A stretch of 32,737 bases of DNA. It comes from an uncultured Mycoplasmatota bacterium. GTDB taxonomy: Bacteria; Bacillota_I; Bacilli_A; RF39; UBA660. The stretch is from NCBI GenBank assembly GCA_947574085.1, contig CANPIH010000008.1, positions 1-32,737 of the forward strand, read 5' to 3'. Below are positions 10,183 through 14,207 of the stretch, piece by piece; position 1 is the first letter of the stretch; each line of letters starts with the position of its first letter. Made by a program: the position numbers and the translations under genes. The notes below the pieces were generated by a model that worked only from the letters and a program-made list of their open reading frames with translations, searched no databases and was not told where the DNA came from.

Positions 10183-10207
10183 AAAGATAAAAATATTATT
10201 TATCTTT
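10183..10207 (-). terminator. yneF terminator
   Basis: 9-bp stem AAAGATAAA/TTTATCTTT (10183-10191, 10199-10207) ending on the yneF TGA codon, followed on the minus strand by seven T. It closes the tkt-sirA-yneF segment. Confidence 0.75.
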
Positions 10208-10416
10208 CACATAAATTTGTTCATTTGCTTCATGACTTGATTTACTTGTTTTTGACTTGGCTTTCTTCCCATACTACTCATCATAACTTCAATCATTTTT
10301 TCATTGATTGGAGGATTTTTTTGCATATATTTCTTCATAAAAAAACGTGCTCCTAAAAAACCAACAACTAAGCCAACGATAAGACCTATAAGTATTAATA
10401 AAATATCGTGTATCAT
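10207..10416 (-). CDS. yneF: YneF family (UPF0154) small membrane protein
   Basis: A 69-residue protein with one N-terminal membrane helix (about 5-24, rich in Gly/Val/Leu), then GARFFMKKYMQKNPPINEKMI and a conserved RKPSQKQVNQVMKQM tail. This matches the UPF0154/YneF family of Firmicutes, whose function is not known to me. AGGAGG lies 6 nt upstream of the ATG. The order tkt-yneE(sirA)-yneF is the same as in B. subtilis, which strongly supports the assignment. Confidence 0.9.
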   Translation of the reverse strand: MIHDILLILIGLIVGLVVGFLGARFFMKKYMQKNPPINEKMIEVMMSSMGRKPSQKQVNQVMKQMNKFM

Positions 10417-10468: not shown

Positions 10469-10885
10469 TTATACTGGAAGTTTTTCTAACCAAAAATAAT
10501 CAAGATTTTCAAAATCACACAAAAATAAATTGGGAATTGAATATAAATCATCTAAAAAAGAAGGTTTTACAATTGTACTTTCTAAAAGCAAATAATGATT
10601 TCGAATCATTAATTTGGATTCCTCTTTCTGGTAAATATTATTCACTTGATGTTTGTTTTTAAATTTCATATAAAAATAATTTTCTTGATATTTTTGAAAA
10701 ATTTTTTTATCCAATATTTTTGTATTTATATTTTCTACAAGTTTATAAAATATATCTGCACCTTGATTAATTTCTTTTTTGTCTAAATTATAAATATATT
10801 TTAGCATTCTAAACAAAGTGTATGGGTTGTTTTTTGTTAATTGTGCATATTCCTCTTTTATTTTAAAAATATAAAACGTTCGCAT
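10469..10885 (-). CDS. sirA: Sporulation inhibitor of replication SirA
   Basis: SirA binds domain I of DnaA and blocks new rounds of replication when cells commit to sporulation. The 138-residue product starts MRTFYIFKIKEEYAQLTKNN, matching the typical MRTYYIF start of SirA (148 residues in B. subtilis, YneE). It has no membrane segment. The position between tkt and yneF is exactly that of B. subtilis yneE. GGTG precedes the ATG at 7 nt. A TATACT with a TG extension (10903-10908) lies upstream but lacks a good -35; in B. subtilis transcription is Spo0A-dependent, and I could not identify a clear Spo0A box here. The middle of the protein is diverged. Confidence 0.8.
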   Translation of the reverse strand: MRTFYIFKIKEEYAQLTKNNPYTLFRMLKYIYNLDKKEINQGADIFYKLVENINTKILDKKIFQKYQENYFYMKFKNKHQVNNIYQKEESKLMIRNHYLLLESTIVKPSFLDDLYSIPNLFLCDFENLDYFWLEKLPV

Positions 10886-10949: not shown

Positions 10950-12935
10950 TTATGATTCTGTTAATAATTTTACTACTTTCATTTTTAAATTTTCAAAATC
11001 GTACTCACATTTATTTACTACTTCTTGAGAAAATCCACTATAGCCAAAATCGTTAAATCCCAAAATATATTTATCAGAAGAAACAAATAATCCCCATCCT
11101 AATTTGCTACTTGGTTCTAAAACAATTGTTTTTACTCCTTTTGGCAAAAGACTTTCTTGATAAGTTTTTTCTTCTTTTAAGAACAATTCCATACTAGGCA
11201 TAGACACTACACGAAGTTCAAAGTTGTCTCTTCGAAGTTCAATTGCAATGTTTAATGCATTTAGCACTTCTTTTCCGGTTGCAATTAAAATACCATCTAA
11301 TTTTTTTTCTTCTTTTCTCACAATATAAGCACCATGATTTATCATTTTTGGATTACTATTTGGCAATTTAGGTATGGTCGCATTTCCTAAAACTATACAA
11401 ACTGGTTTTTTATTTTTACAAATAAATTCCCATACCCCCATAATTTCATAAATATCGCTAGGTCGAAACGTAAGTAAATTGGGAATACTTCTTAAAGCAG
11501 TAAGTTGTTCAATGGGTTCAAAAATGGCTCCATCTTCGCTATAATGAATACTATCATGAGTAAAAATATATGTAACAGGTAAATTCATAAAAGCACTCAT
11601 TCTCATAGCAGTTTTTAAAGAATCTGCATTTACTAATTTAGTGCTACAATACATTTTTAAACCACTTATCGCCATACCATTCATTATGCCAGCCATTGCT
11701 TCTTCACGTCCGCCAAAATTTATGTTTTTACCTAATGGTTTTTCTGGAGTTTGAATACTTGTATTGTCTAAATACGCTTTTGTAGTCGAGGCAAGATCTG
11801 CACTTCCTCCTAAAATAAATTCAGATTTAGAGGCAACTAGATTTAAAACTTTGTGATGTGTGAGTAATAAATTTTCATTGTAGGTTTCGCTAACTTTATA
11901 ATTTAAACTATCAAAAGGAATTGGAAAATTTTTATTAGTCAACAATTGAAATAAATTTAAAAGTCGAGCGTTTCCAGATGATTTAATTTTATTAACAGAA
12001 TTGGTAAAATCTGTGTATTTTTTTTCAATGCGTTCACGAATTAAGTTTTTTATATGAACTACCGTATCTTTTCTTACTTCAAAAGGTGCAATGGTAACGT
12101 TTAAATTTCTTTTTAAATTAAAGATATCATCATCCATTAATGGACCTTCAAAAACTACATTTTTATTTTCGTTTCGTGTTCCTTTTCCTAAAACAGTCTG
12201 AAATAAAAGTAAAGATGGCTTTTTACTTTTTTTAGCAAGAGTTATTGCTTTATCTATACTTTTTAAATTGTCAGCGTCTTTAATTTTATTGACATAAAAT
12301 CCCATAGATTCAAAACGTTTTTCTATATCCTCCTTAAAATTATCAGCTGTGGAACCATCATTGGTAACGTTTGAAAAATCGCACAAAATCATTAATTTGT
12401 CTAATTTTTGTACACCAGCAAATGAAGTAGCTTCGTAGCTAACTCCTTTCATCAAATCTAAATCGGTGCAATATACATAAGTACGATAATCAATAAATGT
12501 TTCATTTTCTTCTTCACTTTTTAAAATAGATTCAAAATATCGCTCTGCAAGAGCAAATCCTACCGCATTAGCAATACCCATTCCATATGAACCTATAGAA
12601 ATATCTATACCTGGAGTAATTTCTACTTCAGGAGATCCAGGGGATTTTGCATCTATACTTTTATACTGCTTTAAGTCCTCTTTGGATATATTAAATCCAC
12701 AAATATGCAACGTTGCGTAAAGCAAAGCAGAAGCTTGATAGGAAGATAGAACAAAACGATCTCGATTGAGCCAATCTGGATCTTCAGGATGTATAATCAT
12801 ATGTTTGGCATAAAGAGTATACAAAATAGGTGCACCAGATAAAGCTATTCCTGGATTTCCACTTTTGGCTTTACTGATCATATCTATAGCTAAAGCCTTT
12901 ATTTCTGCAACAGCATTTGTATCATTTGTATTCAT
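10950..12935 (-). CDS. Transketolase homologue with lost active-site residues (probable pseudoenzyme)
   Basis: The 661-residue product aligns end to end with transketolase (B. subtilis Tkt 667) and sits in the tkt position before sirA. It keeps the fold-level signatures: RDRFVLS, ANAVGFALAER, GGSADLA, FGGREEAM with E411, FTHDSI (H460), and RPSD. However, most cofactor and substrate residues are changed relative to Tkt: SGHPG is SGNPG (N27), SAGHGS is SSYQAS (Q67), PGHPE is PGSPE (S101), PLGQG is SYGMG, the TPP-binding GDGD is TDLD (157-160), the Mg-ligand Asn is S188, VHGAPL is VFEGPL (E263), PTHEP is AIFEP (F472), TRQNLP is GNATIP (N518), and the aromatic cofactor pocket FSDY is NADS. The frame is intact, so it is not a decayed gene. 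I infer a non-catalytic or altered function. A terminator and separate promoter precede it. Confidence 0.85.
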   Translation of the reverse strand: MNTNDTNAVAEIKALAIDMISKAKSGNPGIALSGAPILYTLYAKHMIIHPEDPDWLNRDRFVLSSYQASALLYATLHICGFNISKEDLKQYKSIDAKSPGSPEVEITPGIDISIGSYGMGIANAVGFALAERYFESILKSEEENETFIDYRTYVYCTDLDLMKGVSYEATSFAGVQKLDKLMILCDFSNVTNDGSTADNFKEDIEKRFESMGFYVNKIKDADNLKSIDKAITLAKKSKKPSLLLFQTVLGKGTRNENKNVVFEGPLMDDDIFNLKRNLNVTIAPFEVRKDTVVHIKNLIRERIEKKYTDFTNSVNKIKSSGNARLLNLFQLLTNKNFPIPFDSLNYKVSETYNENLLLTHHKVLNLVASKSEFILGGSADLASTTKAYLDNTSIQTPEKPLGKNINFGGREEAMAGIMNGMAISGLKMYCSTKLVNADSLKTAMRMSAFMNLPVTYIFTHDSIHYSEDGAIFEPIEQLTALRSIPNLLTFRPSDIYEIMGVWEFICKNKKPVCIVLGNATIPKLPNSNPKMINHGAYIVRKEEKKLDGILIATGKEVLNALNIAIELRRDNFELRVVSMPSMELFLKEEKTYQESLLPKGVKTIVLEPSSKLGWGLFVSSDKYILGFNDFGYSGFSQEVVNKCEYDFENLKMKVVKLLTES

Positions 12936-13314: not shown

Positions 13315-13467
13315 TTAATCCCCCATTGCTACTAATTTGTAGCTTCTTTCTTCATTAATTTCTATAGTATTTAAATTTTTAAATCTATAGTTTATGGCAA
13401 AAACTCCAAAAATAATTACCGAATAGAGCAATAAGGCTCCATTGTATTTTGTCCATATTTTTTTCAT
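13315..13467 (-). CDS. 50-residue SOS-regulated membrane peptide in the YneA position
   Basis: A 50-residue protein (MKKIWTKYNGALLLYSVIIF at its start) with a positively charged N-terminus, one membrane helix (about 10-25) and a 24-residue C-terminal tail that should face outward or be short-looped. It is divergent from lexA, where B. subtilis has yneA and staphylococci have sosA, both SOS-induced membrane division inhibitors. Unlike YneA it has no LysM domain. AAGGA lies 6-7 nt before the ATG. A LexA box sits between its -35 and -10. I infer a DNA-damage-induced division inhibitor or similar checkpoint peptide; there is little sequence to test homology. Confidence 0.75.
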   Translation of the reverse strand: MKKIWTKYNGALLLYSVIIFGVFAINYRFKNLNTIEINEERSYKLVAMGD

Positions 13468-13490
13468 CTACATTCCTTCTTTCTAGATTA

Positions 13491-13519
13491 AGAATGACAC
13501 GTATATTTGTTCGTGTCAA
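13491..13519 (-). promoter_or_regulatory. LexA-controlled promoter of the 50-residue peptide
   Basis: -35 TTGACA (13514-13519), 17-nt spacer, extended -10 TGTCATTCT (CATTCT 13491-13496). A LexA (SOS) box CGTATATTTGTTCG (13500-13513) fills the spacer; it matches CGAACnnnnGTTCG at 8 of 10 fixed positions. Confidence 0.75.
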
Positions 13520-13527
13520 CGAAAACA

Positions 13528-13567
13528 TGAACATTTGTTTGACTTTTTATGCAATTAATGTTATCAT
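13528..13567 (+). promoter_or_regulatory. lexA promoter with second LexA box
   Basis: LexA box TGAACATTTGTTTG (13528-13541; core GAAC-4-GTTT) overlaps -35 TTGACT (13539-13544); 17-nt spacer, extended -10 TGTTATCAT (TATCAT 13562-13567). This is a classic autoregulation layout. Confidence 0.8.
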
Positions 13568-13589: not shown

Positions 13590-14207
13590 GTGAAAGAATT
13601 AACTTTGAAGCAAACAGAAGTATTAAATTTTATAAAAAAGTACACCGCTACGCATGGTTTTCCACCAGCAATTCGAGAAATTTGCGAGGGTCTTGGTTTA
13701 TCCAGCCCTGCTACAGTACATGCCCATTTAAAAAAATTAGAAATGGCTGGCGTTATTAAAACAAGCAATAATAAATTTAGAACTATTGAAGTTCTCGTGG
13801 AAAACGAATATATTGATAAAAAAGAAGATGTCATTAAAATTCCTCTCCTCGGTAAAATTACCGCTGGAAGTCCAATAGAAGCTATTGAACAACCAAATGA
13901 ATTTTTTAATATTCCTGCTTCTTTAGTTCCAAAAAAGGAAACTGTTTTTGCTTTACATGTAAGTGGTGAATCTATGATTAATAAAGGAATTTTTGATGGA
14001 GATTATATAATTGTTCAAAAACAAAAAATAGCTAGAAATGGTGACATTGTTGTTGCAATGACTCCAGATAATGAAGTTACTTTAAAAACATTTTATAAAG
14101 AAAAAGATCACATTCGCTTACAGCCAGAAAATGACACCATGAATCCTATACTTTTACCAAACTGTACAATTTTAGGAAAAGCTATAGGTTTGTATAGACA
14201 ATTTTAA
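13590..14207 (+). CDS. lexA: LexA repressor
   Basis: Represses the SOS regulon and self-cleaves when RecA is activated. From the GTG at 13590 the protein has 205 residues, the same as B. subtilis LexA. It has a winged-helix DNA-binding domain (ELTLKQTEVLNFI, GFPPAIREI, SSPATVHAHLKKLE), the cleavage site A92-G93 in GKITAGSPIEA, the nucleophile Ser128 in VSGESM and the base Lys166 in EVTLKTF. The GTG is chosen because it gives the family N-terminus; GGAGG is 11 nt upstream, somewhat far, while longer in-frame starts would lie upstream of the promoter. It has autoregulatory LexA boxes and is transcribed divergently from the 50-residue gene. Confidence 0.95.
   Translation: MKELTLKQTEVLNFIKKYTATHGFPPAIREICEGLGLSSPATVHAHLKKLEMAGVIKTSNNKFRTIEVLVENEYIDKKEDVIKIPLLGKITAGSPIEAIEQPNEFFNIPASLVPKKETVFALHVSGESMINKGIFDGDYIIVQKQKIARNGDIVVAMTPDNEVTLKTFYKEKDHIRLQPENDTMNPILLPNCTILGKAIGLYRQF

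Follow-up and report, generated by a model that had tools for sequence, protein, structure and literature searches.

A conserved lexA-divergent membrane peptide of uncultured Bacilli as a candidate SOS division inhibitor

Among Gram-positive bacteria, SOS division inhibitors have been described in a few cultured genera and have been called poorly conserved. The window analysed here, the whole stretch of 32,737 nucleotides from an uncultured Mycoplasmatota bacterium, carries a frame of 50 codons that is divergent from lexA. This raises the question of whether the frame is a gene and, if so, whether its product belongs with the SOS-induced inhibitors of cell division.

The peptide gene and its conservation

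The minus-strand frame encodes MKKIWTKYNGALLLYSVIIFGVFAINYRFKNLNTIEINEERSYKLVAMGD, and its divergent arrangement with lexA is confirmed as originally predicted (Table 1). In the aligned upstream regions, the ribosome-binding site is kept throughout the genus as AGAAAGAAGG/AGAAAGAGGG. Peptide identity to the window copy is 48-69% inside the genus, and the residues M1, K3, Y8, Y15, G21, N26, R28, L32, and N33 are nearly constant. The last four of these stand immediately past the helix, and the end of the tail is also conserved in the genus. Over 17 genomes of the genus, pN/pS is 0.45 for the whole peptide, 0.26 for residues 1-8, 0.37 for the helix, and 0.75 for the tail, values that are rough because dS is high. 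Changes are in excess at third codon positions. By these substitution patterns the peptide of the source genus is under purifying selection, and on sequence evidence the frame is a real, conserved gene.

Table 1. Features of the lexA-peptide region, in window coordinates
Feature	Position	Strand	Evidence and remarks
YneF (UPF0154)	10207..10416	-	PF03672, E 8e-28
SirA-like protein	10469..10885	-	PF10747, E 1.7e-4, 22.5 bits, under the 26-bit cut-off; syntenic with B. subtilis sirA/yneE
Transketolase (tkt)	10950..12935	-	PF00456, E 1e-81; third gene in line
Second operon gene, 109 aa	12984..13313	-	start lies one base past the stop of the peptide gene
Gene of the single-helix membrane peptide, 50 aa	13315..13467	-	ORF with ATG at 13467; sequence, selection, helix model
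Ribosome-binding site of the peptide gene, GA-rich, AAGAAGGA	13474..13481	-	read from sequence
-10 of the peptide promoter, CATTCT, preceded by TG (extended -10)	13491..13496	-	aligned upstream regions
Putative LexA box 2, CGTATATTTGTTCG, in the spacer of the peptide promoter	13500..13513		minus-strand reading CGAACAAATATACG
-35 of the peptide promoter, TTGACA	13514..13519	-	sequence; box 2 abuts TTGACN in relatives
Putative LexA box 1, TGAACATTTGTTTG, overlapping the lexA -35 (autoregulation)	13528..13541		box kept among the loci
lexA promoter: TTGACT (13539-13544), 17 nt, TATCAT with TG	13539..13567	+	promoter consensus scan
lexA, 205 aa, GTG start	13590..14207	+	TIGR00498, E 5e-68; PF01726, PF00717

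The structure model of the peptide is a single helix over residues 3-48, confident for about residues 11-30. The peptide and its relatives each have one hydrophobic stretch and a charge bias, with an N-terminal net charge of +1 to +6, mostly +4, and a charge of about 0 past the helix. The predicted topology is thus a single N-terminal helix with the C-terminus outside. A single helical binding face is not supported, since the periodicity of conservation along the helix is not significant (p 0.095). LysM gave no Pfam match in the window peptide or in 25 relatives and no NCBIfam match in the window peptide, and 50 residues are too short to hold this domain. The one membrane helix, short tail, and lack of LysM described in the original prediction all hold, and they are conserved. 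The poor conservation that it expected applies between subclades, where the tail is very variable, and does not apply inside the genus.

No Pfam or NCBIfam model fits the peptide; a match to the family "Meg" (E 0.022) fell under the cut-off and was judged to be chance. A tblastn search of the peptide against plasmids returned no matches. A profile of the genus peptide was also run against 395 genomes of the class. Its strong matches were confined to the source organism's own family, and the weak matches outside it lay mostly inside long frames and were judged to be chance.

Loci of relatives were fetched with LexA (30 by genome search, together with 80 named contigs), and 100 lexA loci were kept once distant and short ones had been dropped. 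They come nearly all from metagenome-assembled uncultured Bacilli, including Candidatus Scybalousia and Candidatus Onthousia. An ORF counted when it had a ribosome-binding site, a membrane-helix-like stretch, and a start 60-360 nt from the lexA start. Such single-helix ORFs of 37-60 aa (median 49) diverge from lexA in 78 of the 100 loci, against a mean of 1.1 and a maximum of 4 loci in shuffled sequences, so that the search for short lexA-divergent frames in related genomes, proposed with the original prediction, had a positive outcome. Shorter frames of 28, 28, and 32 aa occur in three further loci (L065 and L068, which are sister loci, and L090). A peptide of any length is present at 81 loci; the other 19 have apparently lost the gene, which indicates that the peptide is dispensable in some species. 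Other clades keep the layout and not the sequence, with types such as MKExLKSK...(I/A)MNVK, and the type linked to polA has a C-terminal NTNxSVSVxLxK. The LexA tree requires at least six gains or losses of the peptide on well-supported branches, and because the peptide and its tkt neighbour are spread across the main clades, most of these events were probably losses. A literature search for lexA-divergent peptides in uncultured Bacilli found none in the collection of papers covered.

Promoters and SOS sites

Boxes 1 and 2 are each two mismatches away from the LexA consensus CGAACN4GTTCG. Box 2 fills the spacer of the peptide promoter, lying exactly between TTGACA and CATTCT on the minus strand, and box 1 lies over the lexA -35; both placements are as the original prediction gave them. 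The -10 of the peptide promoter is weak in the source genome, for which reason this promoter is absent from the consensus-scan list, and relatives have TAATCT, TATTCT, or TAAAGT instead. The window holds four LexA-like sites with two mismatches where 2.9 are expected. This is chance level, so a significance drawn from the window by itself was rejected, and the significance of the boxes comes from their conservation among the loci.

Box 1 is present with at most three mismatches in 97 of the 100 loci. Box 2, at the same threshold, accompanies 80 of the 81 loci with the peptide versus 3 of the 19 without it (Fisher p ~1e-14, a value that ignores relatedness). TTGACN is found at 75 of 78 loci, and in 66 of those 75 the box starts exactly after it. 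On the LexA tree, ~5/6 well-supported independent contrasts agree with the coupling of box and peptide and almost none oppose it, with a borderline sign test (median p 0.06). The conserved sites argue for the LexA control of the peptide promoter that had been claimed. Where family models are missing, the combination of TTGACA, an immediately following LexA box, and a short lexA-divergent frame offers a compact signature for finding candidate checkpoint genes.

In the source genome as a whole, the exact pattern CRAACN4GTTYG occurs at only two sites, compared with one for the reversed-pattern control. One site stands just upstream of the recA promoter, directly before the -35. The other, at a contig end (L146 1-131), is about 45 nt upstream of a gene for a putative DNA modification/repair radical-SAM protein (TIGR03916), matched by a stub of its first 24 residues only. 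Since these are the genes at which they are found, LexA sites of this kind mark repair genes here. The genome also encodes FtsW- and RodA-type proteins, together with a single CtpA-like S41 protease. A third gene of the FtsW/RodA/SpoVE type has one in-frame TAA (L148, G000:C59:6428-7402). The DivIC model has no match in the source genome, which is 86% complete. Multi-copy LysM proteins are widespread in the whole family, and their presence elsewhere in the genome therefore says nothing on a displaced YneA.

Gene neighbourhood and known SOS peptides

Divergent from lexA, the gene order in the window is peptide, 109-aa gene, tkt, SirA-like gene, and yneF. It matches the yneA region of B. subtilis, in which the order divergent from lexA is yneA-yneB-ynzC-tkt-sirA-yneF. 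The claimed YneA/SosA position, opposite lexA and upstream of the tkt-sirA-yneF stretch, thus applies to the peptide and is conserved. SirA is a sporulation inhibitor of replication; the SirA-like gene here sits in a small-genome bacterium.

The second frame is 91-110 aa long in the genus, begins no more than a few bases from the stop codon of the peptide gene, and is translationally coupled to that gene. In profile searches, the 109-aa protein is remotely similar to MazG-type nucleotide pyrophosphohydrolases (2gta YpjD, E 5.7e-4; also 1vmg and 5ie9). The Pfam MazG model reached E 0.1 against its family, in one member only. In the alignment to 2gta, the acidic motif EExxE...ExxD is altered, with the first glutamates replaced and KxxD in place of ExxD. 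The model of the protein is poor (pLDDT 59) and a fold search with it gave no supported match, so the MazG kinship is drawn from the sequence profiles. The protein would be a MazG linked to the SOS response, perhaps altered or inactive, and it occurs only in the source genus and a few relatives. In other clades the gene after the peptide is tkt, polA, yneF, or a glycosyltransferase gene. In one clade, polA (DNA polymerase I) lies directly 3' of the peptide, which suggests an SOS-linked polA (L066, L074, L078, L081-L084, L087, L089, L091, L094, L096, L098, L101, L103, L106, and others).

YneA of B. subtilis and Listeria resembles the peptide in being lexA-divergent and LexA-controlled, with one N-terminal helix and with tkt, a SirA-like gene, and yneF downstream. 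In contrast, the peptide is half as long and is without the LysM that YneA requires for activity (PMC13396833), and its second gene is MazG-like rather than the YneB resolvase found beside YneA. Bacillales loci fetched with LexA had no clean YneA frame, and the comparison with YneA was made by domain content and position. Because LysM is missing, the peptide is by content not YneA and is a separate LysM-free form. The helix of YneA binds TM7 of FtsW, a protein on which SosA and SidA have been modelled as well; YneA without LysM arrives at the division site yet does not block division (PMC13396833).

SosA of Staphylococcus aureus is also lexA-divergent, with one helix, no LysM, and a short extracellular tail, and it still arrests division at 77 aa, for which the membrane-proximal part of the tail is needed (PMC6851548). 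Its conserved membrane-proximal motif is reported as Y40/E41/D44/H45, whereas the 50-aa peptide has NxRFKxLN there and, by eye, no D-H pair past the helix; this comparison uses the published description of SosA. SidA of Caulobacter crescentus is an SOS-controlled inner-membrane micropeptide of 29 aa that acts on FtsW (PMC4211646), and differs, as far as its description goes, in being alphaproteobacterial and having another lexA box. ChiZ of Mycobacterium and DivS of Corynebacterium are likewise lexA-adjacent, SOS-controlled, and single-helix proteins (PMC6851548), but, again by description, they are actinobacterial and ChiZ carries LysM. YneA has at least 103 aa (residues 28-103 were purified; PMC6051672), and CtpA clears YneA and probably SosA too (PMC6051672, PMC6851548). 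With 50 aa, the peptide is, as proposed, among the smallest SOS division-inhibitor candidates of Firmicutes. Shorter ones exist beyond that comparison, namely SidA (PMC4211646) and the 28-aa relatives found here.

Candidate role in cell division

The best explanation, and a fairly likely one by analogy with YneA, SosA, and SidA, is that the product of this real gene is a single-pass membrane peptide, induced by the SOS response, which delays division after DNA damage. In the undamaged cell, the conserved sites suggest that LexA would occupy box 2 in the promoter spacer and box 1 at lexA. After damage, following established LexA/RecA biology, RecA filaments would bring about LexA self-cleavage and free both promoters (recA has its own box). 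The peptide would be made off a very short leader, along with the 109-aa protein, and would insert N-in/C-out through its positive N-terminus and helix. As in the known inhibitors, the helix may then bind a septal peptidoglycan synthase, most likely FtsW, and halt septal synthesis; a contact with FtsW via the helix is probable. By the same analogy, clearance of the peptide would fall to a tail-specific protease, for which the CtpA-like S41 enzyme of the genome is a candidate.

The points weighed in favour of a division inhibitor are the conserved ORF, coding selection, box-peptide coupling, LexA sites before recA and a repair gene, gene order, N-terminal charge, the FtsW/RodA and CtpA-like proteins, and the literature on YneA, SosA, and SidA. 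Those weighed against it are the LysM need of YneA, the lack of a significant helical face, the variable tail, the 19 loci without the gene, and the missing DivIC match. As YneA without LysM fails to block division, the action of a LysM-free peptide cannot be identical to that of YneA, and by analogy it must be more like that of SosA or SidA.

It is very improbable that the frame is no gene, that is, a frame arising by chance in the leader that precedes the next gene, where only the DNA of promoter and box is conserved. The frame is short and the boxes in the window are at chance level, but the 78 loci against a shuffled mean of 1.1, the pN/pS of 0.45 and third-position excess, and the conserved ribosome-binding site and start all argue for a coding sequence, and at loci such as L090 a terminator-like hairpin stands directly 3' of the stop of the 28-aa frame. 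If the frame is a gene, its product might still be an SOS-induced membrane-depolarising micro-toxin and not a divisome inhibitor. TisB of E. coli is a type I toxin under antisense-RNA control and is not lexA-divergent. The peptide has in common with it a very small size, a single hydrophobic helix, and control by LexA (TisB reviewed in PMC8309996), and some members are reduced to the helix alone. This type I toxin-antitoxin or persistence-peptide reading is nevertheless unlikely. The leader, only some 20 nt long and with its ribosome-binding site open, seems to leave no room for TisB-like antisense control, and none of the RNA families in Rfam matched; residues directly past the helix and, in the genus, at the tail end are conserved, and the gene keeps the yneA position instead of occurring as scattered copies.

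An SOS-induced membrane peptide could also have another target and regulate a membrane protease, the cell envelope, or the protein encoded by the second gene. Many small membrane proteins modulate larger ones, the peptide is translationally coupled to the MazG-like protein in the source genus, and polA is the next gene in another clade. These neighbours, however, change between clades while peptide and box persist, which makes the peptide independent of any one of them, and its position is that of yneA and sosA. Such a different target is accordingly considered improbable.

Among relatives, the division-inhibitor reading extends to helix-only versions. L065 (2680-3010) and L090 (2680-3010) have peptides of 28 aa, each with two strong LexA boxes, and these 28-aa members are the most interesting part of the finding. 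They are essentially a helix alone, and they raise a question because B. subtilis YneA is inactive without LysM. A tentative and somewhat doubtful proposal is that a whole family of uncultured Bacilli relies, for its SOS division checkpoint, on peptides reduced to the helix and as short as 28 aa. If true, a bare transmembrane helix would suffice to stop septal synthesis, with neither LysM nor an extracellular domain of any kind, and Firmicutes would have a convergent or reduced SidA-like mechanism.

The peptide is probably a stripped-down, LysM-free form of damage checkpoint that is not listed in the protein-family libraries searched (Pfam and NCBIfam), and the roughly 100 lexA loci of uncultured gut Bacilli provide a ready alignment of it. 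YneA needs LysM, SosA has none, and SidA is almost only a helix; against this contrast, peptides graded in length between 28 and 60 aa permit a direct look at the part that is responsible for stopping FtsW.
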